Source of the DNA: Methylobacterium brachythecii
GTDB taxonomy: Bacteria > Pseudomonadota > Alphaproteobacteria > Rhizobiales > Beijerinckiaceae
Length of the DNA: 64,000 nucleotides
Direction: 5' to 3'
NCBI RefSeq assembly: GCF_014196345.1
Contig: NZ_JACIDN010000001.1
Coordinates: 441,393-505,392 of the forward strand
Below are positions 12,149 through 17,984 of this stretch, piece after piece. Position 1 is the stretch's first letter. Each line of letters starts with the position of its first letter. The notes under the pieces were generated by a model, which saw only the letters and a list, made by a program, of their open reading frames with translations, was not told where the DNA came from and made no database searches. The translations under genes were made by a program, and so were the position numbers.

Positions 12149-12356
12149 GACGACCAAGATTGCTCGAAACCAGATCTGTAAGTCGTCACAGCATAGCCTC
12201 GACGCAATGGAGACGGTTTTCGAATTTCGGGCTCGGCGGGGAGAGTCCTTCTCCGTGGAAATTCCGGCAGAGAAGAATTCTCTCGGGGGGCTTTGGAGCG
12301 CCCGGCGATCGCGCCGAGGACGATGGCGAGGTTCTCGATCTCCGGTCATGCGGGCC

Positions 12357-12385
12357 TCGATCGATGCGCGTCTGGCATCGATCGA
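12357..12385 (+). promoter_or_regulatory. Operator site 1 of the glucarate regulon (LysR box)
   Basis: A perfect 11-bp inverted repeat, TCGATCGATGC, a 7-bp spacer, then its reverse complement. It contains the LysR-type T-N11-A core (T12365, A12377). Its centre lies near -63 of the promoter proposed at 12399-12427, where LysR activators usually bind. The same arrangement recurs at 14782-14810 upstream of gudD. Confidence 0.7.
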
Positions 12386-12398
12386 TCCAGTGTTTGAC

Positions 12399-12427
12399 TT
12401 GGACGGCGCATCGATCCGCCTTTTAGG
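12399..12427 (+). promoter_or_regulatory. Candidate gudP promoter
   Basis: TTGGAC (12399-12404), a 17-bp spacer and TTTAGG (12422-12427). It starts 13 bases after operator site 1 and leaves a leader of about 95 nt before the gudP ATG. The -10 is weak, as expected for an activated promoter. Confidence 0.45.
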
Positions 12428-12528
12428 TTGTCTTCGGAAAAGGCCGCCTCGTGCCGATCGGGACGAAGAAGCCGGCCGACCTCCGCTACGGTAACAGCCG
12501 GGCGGCTCGATCACATGGGAGAACGCTC

Positions 12529-13854
12529 ATGGGCGCCACGCTTGCCGTGTCGCTGGCCAGGCCGAGCCGCGTCCGGCTCGTCATCGTGACGATGATCTTC
12601 GTCGCCAGCACCATCAACTACGCCGACCGGGCGACGCTCTCGATCGCCGGTCCGTCCCTCGCCAAGGATCTCGGCCTCGACGCCGTCTCCATGGGCTACG
12701 TATTCTCGGCTTTCGCCTGGTCCTACGTGCTGGCGCAATTGCCGGGCGGCTGGCTGCTCGACCGCTACGGCGCGAAATCGGTCTACGCCGTCGCCATCTT
12801 CCTGTGGTCCTCCTTCACCCTGATGCAGGGTGCGGTGGGGTTCTTCACGGGCTTTACCGCGGTCGCGCTGCTGTTCTGCCTGCGCCTGATCGTCGGCCTG
12901 GCCGAGGCGCCGGTCTTCCCGGCCAATGCCCGCATCACGGCCGCCTGGTTCCCGGCCTCCGAGCGCGGCACGGCCTCCGCCTTCTTCAACTCATCGCAAT
13001 ACTTCGCGACGGTGCTGTTCACACCGCTGATGGGCTGGGTGGTGCACAATTTCGGCTGGCACCACGTCTTCACCTTCATGGGCGTGCTCGGCATCGCCTT
13101 CGCGCTGCTCTGGACGCAGGTCATTTACGGGCCGAAGGAGCACCCATCCGTCAACCAGGCCGAACTCGATTACATCAGAGAGGGCGGCGCGCTGCTCGAC
13201 ATGGATGGTCACACCCGGGCCACGGCCCCGGGCCAGACCTGGGAGACCATCCGCAAGCTGCTCTCCAACCGGATGCTGCTCGGCATCTATATTGGCCAGT
13301 ACTGCATAACGACGCTGACGTATTTCTTCTTGACCTGGTTCCCGGTCTACCTCGTCAAGGAGCGCGGCCTGTCGATCCTCCAGGCTGGCTTCGCAGCGGT
13401 CCTGCCGGCGCTCTGCGGCTTTGCCGGCGGCATCCTCGGCGGATGGGTCTCCGACCTGCTGCTCAAGAACGGCTACTCGCTCACGGCTGCGCGAAAAATC
13501 CCGATCGTCGGCGGCATGCTGCTCTCGATGGTGATCATCGGCTGCAACTACGTTCAGGCGGATGCGGTGGTGATCGGGCTGATGGCGCTTGCCTTCTTCG
13601 GCAAGGGGATCGGCGCGCTCGGCTGGGCCGTGGTGTCGGACACCTCTCCGAAGGAAGGCGGCGGCCTCTCGGGCGGCCTGTTCAACACCTTCGGCAACAC
13701 TGCCGGCATCACCACACCGATCGCCATCGGCTACATCGTCCAGCAGACCGGCTCGTTCAACGGCGCGCTCGTCTTCGTCGGACTGAACGCGCTCGTGGCG
13801 GTGTTCTGCTATCTGGTGATCGTCGGCGAGATCAAACGGGTGGAGCTGCGCTGA
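12529..13854 (+). CDS. gudP: MFS glucarate/galactarate transporter (GudP-like)
   Basis: 441 aa with about 12 transmembrane helices. The opening NYADRATLSIAGPSLAKDLG and MGYVFSAFAWSYVLAQLPGG is characteristic of the anion:cation symporter (ACS) sugar-acid transporters GudP/GarP. It would import D-glucarate or galactarate with protons. Start at the ATG 12529, preceded by GGGAGAA. A LysR gene, gudD and a garL-like aldolase follow on the same strand, which supports the substrate assignment. Operator site 1 lies upstream. Galactonate or other aldarates remain possible substrates. Confidence 0.85.
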   Translation: MGATLAVSLARPSRVRLVIVTMIFVASTINYADRATLSIAGPSLAKDLGLDAVSMGYVFSAFAWSYVLAQLPGGWLLDRYGAKSVYAVAIFLWSSFTLMQGAVGFFTGFTAVALLFCLRLIVGLAEAPVFPANARITAAWFPASERGTASAFFNSSQYFATVLFTPLMGWVVHNFGWHHVFTFMGVLGIAFALLWTQVIYGPKEHPSVNQAELDYIREGGALLDMDGHTRATAPGQTWETIRKLLSNRMLLGIYIGQYCITTLTYFFLTWFPVYLVKERGLSILQAGFAAVLPALCGFAGGILGGWVSDLLLKNGYSLTAARKIPIVGGMLLSMVIIGCNYVQADAVVIGLMALAFFGKGIGALGWAVVSDTSPKEGGGLSGGLFNTFGNTAGITTPIAIGYIVQQTGSFNGALVFVGLNALVAVFCYLVIVGEIKRVELR

Positions 13855-13896
13855 CGGCGCGCGACGTCTCCACCCACGCTTCGTCAGGGTGGGGGC

Positions 13897-14778
13897 ATGC
13901 TCGACTTCAGCCAGCTCCGTTGCTTCGTCGCCGTCGCCGAGGAGCTGCATTTCGGCCGCGCCGCCGCGCGGTTGAACATGACGCAGCCGCCTCTGTCCCG
14001 GCAGATCCAGGTGCTGGAGCGGGTGCTCGACGCGGCCTTGCTGGAGCGGACCAGCCGCTCCGTGCGCCTCACCGCGGCGGGGCGGAGCTTCCTGCCCGAG
14101 GCGCAGCGCATCCTGCGGCTCGCGGAAACGGCGGCCCACGTGACCCGGCAGGTTGCGGCGGGACGCGCCGGCACCCTCCGGCTCGGCTTCACGGCAGCCT
14201 CGGCCTACGATTTCCTGCCGCGTCTCGTCATCGGCTTCCGCAATGCCCTGCCGGACGTGACGCTGGCTCTGCGCGAGATGGTTTCCCGCGACCAGCTCGA
14301 AGAGCTTCTTTCCGGGCGGATCGACGCGGCGCTGATGCGGCCGCCGGTGACCCATCCCGACCTCGTCTGCGCCCGCGCGCTCGCCGAGCCTCTCGTCGTG
14401 GCGGTACCGGCCGATCACCCCCTGGCCCGGTCCGAGGTCATCACCGTCCGGCACCTGCACGAGATGCCGTTCATCGACTACGCTCCGCACGACGCGCGCT
14501 ACTTCCACGACCTCGTCCAGGGCCTGCTCGACGAGGCAGGCGTGCGCCCGCGCGTGCTGCAGCAGCTCACCCAGATCCATTCGATCCTCGCCCTGGTGCG
14601 CGCCTCGCTGGGCCTCGCCCTGGTGCCGGAGGCCGCCGAGCGCCTGCGCTTCGAGGGCGTCGTCTTCAAGCCGCTGGTGACGATGCGGCCGCGACTCGTC
14701 GAGCTCTACGTGGCGTGGCGGCGCGACCGGGACGACCCGCTGATCGGCGCGCTCGTCGGCCTGCTCGACGGGCTTTGA
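13897..14778 (+). CDS. LysR-family regulator of glucarate genes
   Basis: 293 aa. An N-terminal winged helix-turn-helix (MLDFSQLRCFVAVAEELHFG, then AAARLNMTQPPLSRQIQVLE) and a LysR substrate-binding domain from about residue 90. It is 43 bases downstream of gudP and so probably co-transcribed, with gudD 127 bases further on. The two inverted-repeat operators flanking this block, both centred near -63 of candidate promoters, are the natural sites for this protein. Activation by an aldarate or pathway intermediate is inferred. Confidence 0.92.
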   Translation: MLDFSQLRCFVAVAEELHFGRAAARLNMTQPPLSRQIQVLERVLDAALLERTSRSVRLTAAGRSFLPEAQRILRLAETAAHVTRQVAAGRAGTLRLGFTAASAYDFLPRLVIGFRNALPDVTLALREMVSRDQLEELLSGRIDAALMRPPVTHPDLVCARALAEPLVVAVPADHPLARSEVITVRHLHEMPFIDYAPHDARYFHDLVQGLLDEAGVRPRVLQQLTQIHSILALVRASLGLALVPEAAERLRFEGVVFKPLVTMRPRLVELYVAWRRDRDDPLIGALVGLLDGL

Positions 14779-14781
14779 CGA

Positions 14782-14810
14782 TCGATCGATGCGTATCGTG
14801 CATCGATCGA
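14782..14810 (+). promoter_or_regulatory. Operator site 2 of the glucarate regulon (LysR box)
   Basis: The same 11-bp inverted repeat as at 12357-12385, with the same 7-bp spacer length but a different spacer sequence. Similarity continues downstream (TCCA, then TTTGGCTTGGAC). It begins four bases after the regulator's stop codon and controls the gudD-garL-garR block. Confidence 0.7.
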
Positions 14811-14823
14811 TCCATCCTTTGGC

Positions 14824-14852
14824 TTGGACCCGCATCGGCGGCCATGATGAGA
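14824..14852 (+). promoter_or_regulatory. Candidate gudD promoter
   Basis: TTGGAC (14824-14829) lies 13 bases after operator site 2, exactly as at gudP. At the matching -10 position is ATGAGA (14847-14852), a poor match. The leader to the gudD ATG would be about 46 nt. Confidence 0.35.
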
Positions 14853-14904
14853 TTGCCTCCGGACGCCCGGCGCATCGCACGCTGGCGCCGCACGGGAGGA
14901 AGCC

Positions 14905-16266
14905 ATGCTCGCCCAGTCCGCCGCCGCGCAGTCGCGTGGCCTGTCGCGCACGCCGACCATCGCCGAGATGCGGGTCGTGCCCGTCGCCGGCCGGGATTCG
15001 ATGCTGCTCAACCTCAGCGGCGCGCATGGACCGTTTTTCACCCGCAACCTCGTCGTCCTCACCGACTCGACCGGAGCCACCGGCCTCGGCGAGGTGCCCG
15101 GCGGAGAGGGTATCCGCAGAACTCTGGAGGATGCCCGCGACCTCGTGATCGGCCGGTCGCTCGGCGACTGGCAGGCGGTGCTCAACGCCATGCGGACCCG
15201 CTTCGCCGACCGCGACGCGGGCGGGCGCGGCCTGCAGACCTTCGATCTGCGCGTGACGATCCACGCGGTCACTGCGATGGAATCCGCCTTCCTCGACCTG
15301 CTCGGCCAGTTCCTCGACGTGCCGGTAGCGGCGCTTCTCGGCGAAGGCCAGCAGCGCGAGGCGGTCGAGATGCTCGGATATCTCTTCTATGTCGGCGACC
15401 GCCGCCGCACCGATCTGCCCTACCGCGAGCCGGAGGCCCGCGACGGCTGGCTGCGCCTTCGCGACGAGGAGGCCCTGACGCCCGACGCCGTGGCGCGCCT
15501 CGCCGAGGCCGCGCACGAGGCCTACGGCTTCAACGACTTCAAGCTGAAAGGCGGTGTGCTCGCCGGCGACGATGAGATCGCCGCCGTCACGGCGATCCAC
15601 GAGCGCTTCCCTCAGGCCCGCGTCACCCTCGATCCGAACGGCGCCTGGTCGCTGCAGGAGGCGATCCGCCTCTGCAAGGGCCGGGGCGACGTCCTCGCCT
15701 ATGCCGAGGACCCTTGCGGAGCCGAAGACGGCTTTTCGGGCCGCGAGATCATGGCCGAGTTCCGCCGCGCCACGGGCTTGCCCACCGCCACCAACATGAT
15801 CGCCACCGACTGGCGGCAGATGAACCACGCGATCCAGCTCGGTTCGGTCGACATCCCGCTGGCCGATCCGCATTTCTGGACCATGGCCGGCTCGGTCCGC
15901 GTTGCCCAGCTCTGCCGCGACCATGGCCTGACCTGGGGCTCGCACTCGAATAACCATTTCGACATCTCGCTCGCGATGTTCACGCATGTCGCGGCGGCGG
16001 CGCCCGGCAAGGTCACGGCGATCGACACCCACTGGATCTGGCAGGATGGCCAGCGCCTGACCCGCGAGCCTTTGCAGATCCGCGGAGGGCTGGTTCGGGT
16101 GCCGGAGCGGCCGGGGCTGGGCATCGAGATCGACTGGGCCGAGGTCGAGGCGGCGAACCTCCTCTACGAGAGTCACGGCCTTGGCGCCCGCGACGATGCG
16201 GCGGCGATGCGGTTCCTGATCCCTGGCTGGACCTTCGACAACAAGCGCCCCTGCCTGCTGCGCTGA
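14905..16266 (+). CDS. gudD: Glucarate dehydratase
   Basis: 453 aa, the usual length. Enolase superfamily: dehydrates D-glucarate to 5-keto-4-deoxy-D-glucarate in the cytoplasm. The opening [20 protein letters not shown] followed by HGPFFTRN is a GudD hallmark. Catalytic residues are visible: Lys213 and Lys215 (FKLKGG), Asp243 and Asn245 (DPNGAW), Glu268 (YAEDP), Asn297 and His347 (GSHSNNH). The ATG at 14905 follows GGGAGGAAG. Operator site 2 is upstream and the aldolase follows after 27 bases. Confidence 0.95.
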
Positions 16267-16293: not shown

Positions 16294-17064
16294 ATGGACG
16301 TCCTGACCAACCGCTTCAAGGCCGCGCTCCGCGAGGGGCACCAGCAGATCGGCCTATGGTGCAGCCTGGCGAGCCCGATCTCCACCGAGATCGTCGCGGG
16401 CTCCGGCTTCGACTGGCTGCTCCTCGACATGGAGCACTCGGCCAACGACCTGCGCGACATATACGGGCAGCTTCAGGCCATGGGTGAGGGCACGGCCAGC
16501 GCCATGGTGCGCGTGCCTAGCGACGAGCCGATCACCATCAAGCGCATCCTCGATACGGGCGCGCAGTCGCTGATGATCCCGAACATCGACGATGCTGACC
16601 AGGCCCGACGCGCGGTGGCGGCGACGCGCTACGCCCCGCGTGGAGTGCGGGGCTTCTCGCAAGCACCGCGTGCCGCCCGCTTCGGCCGCATTCCCGACTA
16701 CCACGCCCGCTGCGAGGCCGAGATCTTCGTGGCCGTGCAGATCGAATCCCGCCGTGCCCTCGACAACCTGGAGGAGATCGCCGCCGTCGAGGGCGTCGAC
16801 GGCGTCTTCATTGGCCCCGGCGACCTCTCGACCAGTCTCGGCTTCATCGGCCAGCAGAACCACCCGGACGTGGTGCAGGTGATCGAGACCGCGATCGCGC
16901 GCATCCGCGACGCAGGCAAGCATGCCGGCATCCTCACCGCAAACGAGGAGCTGGCCCAGCGCTACATCACCGCCGGCACCACCTTCACGGCGATCGGATC
17001 GGATATGGGGCTGCTCGCGCGCAGCTCCGAGGCGCTCGCCAAGCGCTTCCGCCACGACGACTGA
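16294..17064 (+). CDS. garL: HpcH/HpaI aldolase, probable 5-keto-4-deoxyglucarate aldolase
   Basis: 256 aa. Class II aldolase of the HpcH/HpaI family with LLLDMEHSAND (general acid/base region), RVPS, metal-binding Glu in QIES and GPGDLSTSLG. In this position after gudD it should cleave 5-keto-4-deoxyglucarate to pyruvate and tartronate semialdehyde, as GarL does. Sequence alone cannot exclude a related 2-keto-3-deoxy acid aldolase. The start ATG at 16294 has GAGGAGACC upstream. The garR pseudogene follows after 20 bases. Confidence 0.82.
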   Translation: MDVLTNRFKAALREGHQQIGLWCSLASPISTEIVAGSGFDWLLLDMEHSANDLRDIYGQLQAMGEGTASAMVRVPSDEPITIKRILDTGAQSLMIPNIDDADQARRAVAATRYAPRGVRGFSQAPRAARFGRIPDYHARCEAEIFVAVQIESRRALDNLEEIAAVEGVDGVFIGPGDLSTSLGFIGQQNHPDVVQVIETAIARIRDAGKHAGILTANEELAQRYITAGTTFTAIGSDMGLLARSSEALAKRFRHDD

Positions 17065-17084: not shown

Positions 17085-17984
17085 ATGAAGGTCGGATTCG
17101 TCGGCCTCGGCATCATGGGCGCGCCTATGGCCGGGCACCTCATCGCGGGCGGCAACAGCCGGTTTCTTAAGACGCGCCGAGAGGTGCCGCAGGCATTGAT
17201 CGAGGCCGGCGGCTAGGCCTGCGGCACGCCGGCCGAGGTCGCCGAGCGCTCGGACGTCATCCTGCTGATGCTTCCAGATACGCCGGACGTCGAGACGGTC
17301 TTGTTCGGCGCCGATGGCGTCGCGGAGAGCCTGAGCGCCGGCAAGACCATCGTCGACATGAGCTCGATCTCACCGATCGCCACGCGCGACTTCGCTGCGC
17401 GGGTCGCCGAGAAGGGCTGCGACTATCTCGACGCTCCGGTCTCCGGTGGCGAGGTCGGCGCCAAAAACGCCGCTCTCTCGATCATGGTAGGCGGCAAAGT
17501 AAAAGCTTTCGAGCGGGTGAAACCGCTCTTCGACCTCATGGGCAAGACCGTGACACATGTCGGCGAGGCCGGTGCGGGACAGGTCGCCAAGGTCGCCAAC
17601 CAGATCATCGTTGCCCTGACGATCGAAGCTGTGGCCGAGGGCCTGCTCTTCGCCTCGAAGGCCGGCGCGGACCCGGCCAAGGTCCGCCAGGCCATCACCG
17701 GGGGGCTCGCCACGTCGCGCATTCTGGAACTGCACGGCGAGCGCATGATCAAGCGGACCTTCGATCCCGGCTTCCGCATCAGGCTGCACCAGAAGGATCT
17801 CAACCTGGCCCTCGAGGGTGCGCGCTCCCTCGGCATGGCCTTGCCGGCGACGGCCCTCGCTCAGCAGCTCTTCTCGGCCTGCGTCGCCAATGGCGGCGCC
17901 GATGCCGATCATTCCGCCATGGTTCGGGCCCTGGAGCTGATGGCTGGTCACGAAATCGGCGAGGCCCCCCCAACCGAACGCTGA
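17085..17984 (+). pseudogene. garR: Tartronate semialdehyde reductase, interrupted by TAG
   Basis: A full-length reading frame of 299 codons (300 with the terminal stop) except for an in-frame TAG at 17214-17216 (codon 44). Before it is the NAD(P) motif GFVGLGIMGAPMAGHL; directly after it the frame continues ACGTPAEVAERSDVILLMLP, then the catalytic region DAPVSGGEVGAKNAALS and Lys in GAGQVAKVANQI. The stop replaces one residue with no frameshift, so a single substitution (for example GAG to TAG) explains it. An internal start at 17268 would give a protein lacking the cofactor motif. Function would be reduction of tartronate semialdehyde to glycerate. A sequencing error is the main alternative. 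Confidence 0.85.

Follow-up and report, generated by a model that had tools for sequence, protein, structure and literature searches.

We describe two palindromic sites in the glucarate gene cluster of Methylobacterium brachythecii, located within a stretch of 64,000 nucleotides (assembly GCF_014196345.1, contig NZ_JACIDN010000001.1, positions 441,393–505,392, forward strand) that is referred to here as the window and whose own numbering is used throughout. We propose that these palindromes, which lie upstream of the transporter gene gudP and of the dehydratase gene gudD, are recognition binding sites (RBS) for the LysR-type regulator encoded between them, and that this protein, as a tetramer, would activate gudP-lysR and gudD-garL-garR. 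On the strength of sequence comparisons, we assign this reading a probability of roughly 0.87.

A preliminary description of this DNA had reported identical inverted repeats of equal spacing, 13 bases before TTGGAC at both genes, and exact copies were located: TCGATCGATGC-N7-GCATCGATCGA, with 11-bp arms and a 7-bp spacer, is present at 12357–12385 and 14782–14810, each copy ending 13 bp 5' of TTGGAC. Both contain ATGC-N7-GCAT, which includes the T-N11-A core of LysR-type operators that had likewise been reported, and this core is conserved in relatives. The gene between them (13897–14778) indeed encodes a LysR protein, with HTH_1 and LysR_substrate domains according to Pfam. Operator 2 starts 1 nt past the lysR stop codon, and its arms extend to 13 bp as a perfect inverted repeat. 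Additionally, the gudP promoter carries a third, exact copy of the half-site, and the gudD promoter carries GCATCG. The sites are as follows:

12357..12385, + strand: operator 1, perfect inverted repeat with 11-bp arms, predicted to serve LysR as a recognition site 5' of gudP; kept in 21/21 gudP-bearing ortholog loci
12399..12404, + strand: TTGGAC, −35-like hexamer at a fixed 13-bp distance; equal distance in relatives
12408..12416, + strand: third copy of the half-site, GCATCGATC, predicted to serve in activation, at 33 bp from operator 1's right half; GCATCG (at least 5/6 bases) at this offset in 6/21 Methylobacterium gudP promoters
14780..14812, + strand: operator 2, inverted repeat with 13-bp arms (11-bp core 14782–14810); after lysR in 49/50 ortholog loci
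14824..14829, + strand: TTGGAC, −35-like hexamer, read from the sequence
14832..14837, + strand: GCATCG, predicted activation half-site, 2 bp past TTGGAC, at a distance of 32 bp from operator 2's right half; at least 5/6 bases at this offset in 19/20 Methylobacterium gudD promoters

Across the 5.4-Mb genome, the palindrome occurs at up to three mismatches in these two places only, both in this cluster, with 0 matches for a reversed control; the genome search that the preliminary description had proposed thus returned no copies at unrelated places. A scan of the same genome for the palindrome together with TTGGAC returned the same two places, again with 0 for the reversed control. Dinucleotide shuffles of the window yielded two matches at up to three mismatches in 0/100 cases (mean 0.01). 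Given these shuffles, the two genome copies and the empty reversed controls, a chance origin of the palindromes was rejected.

The regulator comprises an N-terminal HTH_1 domain (PF00126, 79.9 bits; cut-off 26.6) and a C-terminal LysR substrate-binding domain (PF03466, 153 bits; cut-off 28); these are its sole Pfam domains, and no GntR DNA-binding domain was found. Its nearest relatives in the PDB are 7w06, BenM and 1ixc/7d98. None of the 25 NCBIfam models among the matches listed (51 families matched) reaches its cut-off, including AlsR, HcaR, BenM and CatM; the best match among those listed is AlsR, with 246 bits against a cut-off of 430. The gene is co-directional with gudP, unlike the divergent layout that is usual, although not obligatory, for LysR-type transcriptional regulators (LTTRs).

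Association of the site with the regulator and its targets in Methylobacterium

An ortholog was defined as a LysR protein at least 70% identical to that of the window, and 50 such proteins (70–100% identity) were found in 111 genomes of the genus. LysR matches in the genus numbered 86, and 80 loci were examined: all 50 orthologs, all 14 matches at 56–60% identity, and 16 of the 22 lower ones. Of the 50 ortholog loci, 49 have the site behind lysR, and all 21 in which gudP is upstream of lysR have it before gudP; no site was found at the upstream position in the other 29 ortholog loci, two of which end early. Gene orders in these loci include lysR-garL-garD (19), gudP-lysR-gudD-garL-garR (16) and lysR-garL-garR-garD (7), with gudP-lysR-garD (2), lysR-gudD-garL-garR (2) and four single cases being rarer. 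The site remains after lysR whether gudD, garL or garD comes next; because gene orders behind lysR vary while the site is kept, it stays at lysR as the structural gene behind it changes.

Co-occurrence was scored with the pattern ATCGATGC-N7-GCATCGATC-N-ATCCA (22 fixed bases, at most two mismatches), which matches 51/111 genomes of the genus (reversed control, 0/111). Site and ortholog occur together in 48 genomes, the ortholog alone in two, the site alone in three, and neither in 58. In G013 and G035, the ortholog-only genomes, lysR is followed by a weaker and more degenerate version of the site; of the three site-only genomes, G038 and G064 encode a LysR that is 56–58% identical. Together, this co-occurrence and the placement in 49/50 and 21/21 loci support the proposal of the preliminary description that the repeats are operators of the intervening LysR, as far as comparative data can. 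A shorter pattern, TCGATGC-N7-GCATCGA, was rejected as too loose, matching 36/99 genomes of the genus with 0 for its reversed control; one of these (G080) has three such sites, yet no LysR match at the threshold used.

In a tree of 119 LysR proteins, in which some long branches, including those of Arthrobacter and Blastococcus, are of unsure place, the site-bearing members cluster, with 10 changes compared with a shuffled mean of 36.9. For the tree labels the site was sought from 700 bp before to 300 bp behind lysR, hence 47/50 orthologs are labeled site-bearing. Among the Methylobacterium proteins at 56–60% identity (L113–L126), 2/14 have a canonical site; these two carry TQPPLSRQ in the recognition helix, and the twelve site-less members carry TQPPVSRQ. 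The group at 43–54% identity gave 0/16 at the score cut-off, and its members beside gudPD have TQSPLSRQ or SQSPLSRQ. Because LysR members without a canonical site can retain TQPPLSRQ, what links the recognition helix to the operator is a correlation confined to a single subgroup. Three loci of the same order (L234, L236 and L193) possess perfect or near-perfect palindromes with GGATC replacing GCATC, a natural operator variant. In two related species (L088, 4888–4985; L085, 4912–4961, in oriented loci), the operator 5' of garL continues into tandem half-site units, GCATCGAT, that recur every ~20–25 bp, as if it had been amplified.

Turning to further targets, we set aside the sites immediately after a lysR ortholog, those before the gudP of its cluster and those adjoining the LysR of G038 or G064; 24 sites in the genus remain, and all were examined. 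Eight precede a gudP-like major facilitator superfamily (MFS) transporter with garD next in every case; six precede a second MFS transporter, followed in each by a talarate/galactarate dehydratase; three stand directly before a talarate/galactarate dehydratase; three precede a detached gudD, then garL; and one precedes a 2-hydroxyacid dehydrogenase, which fell below every NCBIfam cut-off listed. Thus, 20/24 precede galactarate/talarate or glucarate genes. TTGGAC is present at the fixed distance (5 or 6 of 6 bases) in 20/24; the site at L224, before a transporter and garD, falls under the 5/6 cut, and the three unexplained sites (L207, L218, L219) all lack the hexamer at that distance. Pfam and NCBIfam scans covered example neighbors, and one NCBIfam example of each kind scored above cut-off for garD (L224), talarate/galactarate dehydratase (L217) and both MFS types.

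Promoter geometry and occurrence beyond the genus

The motif GCATCG was scored at +1 to +3 behind TTGGAC (at least 5/6 bases), together with four control offsets. It is found in 19/20 Methylobacterium gudD promoters and in 54/98 sites outside the genus (68 loci), compared with 0–4 at each of the four control offsets. In the window, its distance from the right half of the palindrome, 32 bp at gudD and 33 bp at gudP, corresponds to about three helical turns, in the same orientation. A TA step lies 18–19 bp behind TTGGAC in 17/20 gudD promoters, 18/21 gudP promoters and 90/98 sites outside Methylobacterium, fractions that are descriptive, the promoter sites being related by descent. The optimal −35/−10 spacing is 17 bp, and a consensus scan of 12250–14950 found no sigma-70-type promoter. 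In our interpretation, TTGGAC is a −35-like element whose spacer is long, as would suit a promoter that depends on an activator; this pattern is not seen in the garL/garD class. The palindrome centre, ~60–65 bp before the predicted start, would fit a recognition site near −65 with an activation site near −35, although the activation half-site is absent from some promoter classes; the centre near −63 given in the preliminary description likewise depends on predicted starts. In several classes, though not all, the GCATCG half-site together with a fixed −10 distance would correspond to the layout of recognition and activation binding sites (RBS/ABS) of LysR activators. The palindrome that the preliminary description had singled out is thus conserved, but the element also includes TTGGAC at a fixed distance and often the downstream half-site.

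Outside the genus, the pattern GATGC-N7-GCATC-N2-TC-N-AT-N12-TTGGAC (20 fixed bases; one genome per species) returned at least 118 stretches, and the figures that follow refer to the 80 loci among the matches listed. Near the site, 61/80 carry homologs of genes in the window cluster, of garD, of talarate dehydratase or of the extra transporters, and 15 more contain KdgD or the tripartite ATP-independent periplasmic (TRAP) protein DctP somewhere in the locus, single examples having been checked with NCBIfam. Altogether, 76/80 hold pathway or LysR homologs, of which L249 is doubtful, with only a weak reversed LysR match. The closest solved structures to a protein of L318 are uronate dehydrogenases, its NCBIfam matches being below cut-off; L244 and the similar L270 encode a Lactonase-type protein (Pfam, L244); and nothing recognizable was found in the locus of a Planctomycetaceae bin (L289). 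Genera with the pattern include Bradyrhizobium, Methylobacterium, Komagataeibacter and Inquilinus, as well as the Actinomycetota Blastococcus, Modestobacter, Geodermatophilus, Rhodococcus, Nocardia, Nocardioides and Arthrobacter. The site adjoins a LysR homolog in Bradyrhizobium, Komagataeibacter, Blastococcus, Geodermatophilus and Arthrobacter. In two Bradyrhizobium loci (L251, L261) and ten similar ones, a second site of the same architecture precedes a TRAP DctP gene, which suggests regulated uptake of uronates or hexarates by this LysR clade.

In a phylum sample of 398 genomes, which included the order of the window, nine genomes matched the pattern at no more than one mismatch, all in that order (reversed control, 0); because of this, the distribution of the cassette is patchy rather than universal. 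The genes behind it are non-homologous, encompassing transporters of three families, four dehydratases and a uronate-dehydrogenase-like gene. We lean toward the view that the palindrome, TTGGAC and, in many promoters, GCATCG form a conserved operator-promoter cassette of a LysR clade, no description of which was found in literature searches of partial coverage, and which would control hexarate and uronate catabolism in Alphaproteobacteria and Actinomycetota, kept or passed on with its regulator across phyla and placed before non-homologous genes. The preliminary description had offered the palindrome as the consensus of a glucarate regulon; the site does mark pathway genes, but in other strains and species genes for galactarate, talarate and uronates belong to the regulon as well.

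Proposed mechanism and alternative explanations

Under the proposed mechanism, a LysR dimer would occupy each palindrome, centred ~60–65 bp before the predicted start, and the second dimer of the tetramer would contact the weaker GCATCG half-site, about three helical turns downstream and beside TTGGAC. The inducer-bound tetramer, reaching the GCATCG/TTGGAC region, would then recruit polymerase to gudP-lysR and gudD-garL-garR. A pathway metabolite may serve as inducer. 5-Keto-4-deoxyglucarate is the shared product of glucarate and galactarate dehydratases, and because the cross-species regulon includes gudD, garD and talarate/galactarate dehydratase it would be the simplest candidate; possibly, the hexarates themselves could act in this role. 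The lysR gene apparently lies inside an operon that its product activates, and since lysR is behind gudP on the same strand, LysR may exert positive feedback on its own expression. We infer direct binding, the tetramer contacts, activation over repression, operon structure, inducer and feedback from the arrangement of sites and genes.

Several observations weigh against this interpretation. One ortholog locus (L087) has no site after lysR, relaxed criteria included, and in one genome (G059) the site occurs although no LysR match was found. Counts such as 48 genomes with both and 58 with neither overstate the evidence, since related genomes are not independent of one another. Where gudPD lies beside a LysR of 47–54% identity, 12/14 loci keep a degenerate architecture with TTGGAC (TTAGAC in one), and on account of these paralogous loci a strict version, in which the site tracks this LysR only, was rejected. 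Among order-level relatives, 15/29 reach the score cut-off, one of these (L191) being the Methylobacterium locus L113 again, and several have a GGATC half-site instead. GCATCG follows TTGGAC in only 6/21 Methylobacterium gudP promoters, 2/30 Methylobacterium sites before garL/garD and 6/21 extra-locus sites (the 20 extra sites and, in addition, the one next to lysR in L223), and TA at 18–19 bp is found in 3/30 garL/garD sites and 10/21 extra-locus sites.

The palindromes could instead bind this LysR as a repressor that acts without tetramer activation and is released from the promoter by a metabolite. Some LysR proteins do repress in the absence of inducer; moreover, TTGGAC overlaps the predicted contact region, and the downstream half-site is mostly missing in several promoter classes. 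Models of LysR regulation that include repression are presented in the available portion of PMC5002191. We nevertheless regard repression as unlikely: a palindrome centre ~60–65 bp before the predicted start is an activator position, not a promoter-blocking one, and a −35/−10-like spacing of 18–19 bp where TA can be placed, with no consensus sigma-70 promoter, suits an activator-dependent promoter. It is also conceivable that the palindromes belong to another regulator of the same genes, for example a GntR-type protein like GguR or a CdaR-like protein, with passive linkage of lysR. Long perfect dyads are typical of other regulator families too and are not exclusive to LysR, and G059 has the site without a LysR match. 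Furthermore, known hexarate regulators include CdaR in E. coli (PMC10204090) and the GntR-family GguR in Halomonas (PMC5507952). Yet the site follows lysR even when the downstream gene differs, its T-N11-A core is of LysR type, it stands beside a LysR homolog in the five genera named above, from Bradyrhizobium to Arthrobacter, and within the 56–60% Methylobacterium group PPLS in the two site-bearing members is set against PPVS in the twelve site-less ones; we consider this alternative very unlikely.

That the repeats act at the RNA level, forming a terminator or a hairpin in the leader, or that they are a mobile repeat, appears remoter still. The strands would fold as RNA hairpins (z −1.7 and −3.2), but a long DNA palindrome yields a hairpin regardless, the conserved distance to TTGGAC accords with a protein that binds DNA, and the palindrome would sit upstream of the predicted start. 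With 0 terminator-like sites in 12250–14950 and two genome copies that form no repeat family, the repeat and terminator ideas were rejected. Activation by the intervening LysR remains the reading that we prefer.

The gene cluster and its relation to known systems

The genes of the cluster are as follows:

12529..13854, + strand: gudP-like MFS transporter; TIGR00893 above cut-off
13897..14778, + strand: LysR-type regulator, 293 aa, 42 nt behind gudP; Pfam HTH_1 and LysR_substrate
14905..16266, + strand: gudD, glucarate dehydratase; TIGR03247 above cut-off
16294..17064, + strand: garL-like 2-dehydro-3-deoxyglucarate aldolase, HpcH/HpaI family; NCBIfam matches under cut-off
17085..17984, + strand: garR-like tartronate semialdehyde reductase, by homology, with an in-frame TAG at 17214–17216

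Because gudP and lysR share a strand and lie 42 nt apart, they probably form a single transcription unit. The garR-like frame is interrupted by one in-frame stop, at codon 44, and is otherwise intact; four relatives examined read through. The TAG reflects either a nonsense mutation of recent date or an error in the sequence. Another homolog of the reductase in this genome (C2:424576) likewise holds one internal stop. No galactarate dehydratase above the TIGR03248 cut-off was found in this genome (G000), and for this reason the regulon of this strain looks glucarate-only; in the nearest relative (L064), garD sits between gudP and lysR.

LTTRs with RBS/ABS sites are a known kind, and LysR activators of the CatM/BenM/CbnR group have this operator layout. 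Shared with that group are the HTH_1 and LysR_substrate domains, a T-N11-A dyad, a palindrome ~60–65 bp 5' of where transcription is predicted to begin, a putative weaker half-site past it, close to the −35 region, and catabolic targets; here, however, the half-site is GATGC/GCATC with long GATC arms, the regulator is co-directional and behind its target gene rather than divergent, and the pathway is for hexarates, not aromatics. According to the available portion of PMC5002191, an extended LysR motif is CTATA-N9-TATAG, with an IR1/IR2/IR3 model in which a conserved primary site is joined by a weaker neighbor used on induction; the T-N11-A palindrome and this arrangement are alike, whereas the bases around T-N11-A differ here and the arms are longer. 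In physiological role, the system resembles the CdaR regulon of E. coli for D-galactarate, D-glucarate and D-glycerate (PMC10204090, in the part available), although the regulator here is LysR-type by Pfam. Similarly, a galactarate/glucarate operon regulon of GguR in Halomonas has been predicted by comparative genomics (PMC5507952, available part); GguR is of the GntR family and the regulator here is LysR-type, so that an assignment of GguR as a LysR protein was discarded as wrong. Literature searches of partial coverage, over titles and abstract openings, found no LysR glucarate regulator, operator, clade regulon or cross-phylum cassette described, which does not establish absence from print.

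For the use of glucarate and galactarate in Methylobacterium, Bradyrhizobium and similar genera, these findings supply a candidate regulator together with a site consensus and the geometry of the promoters. The specificity of the motif suffices to locate pathway genes where annotation is lacking, and members of the regulon could thereby be predicted from the DNA alone. The glucarate sensor in a biosensor paper is CdaR of E. coli (PMC10204090, in the part available), and the LysR clade described here is a potential source of a hexarate biosensor. Finally, the natural variation in the half-site (GCATC, GGATC) and in the helix (PPLS, PPVS, SPLS) may be useful for understanding how LysR proteins read DNA.

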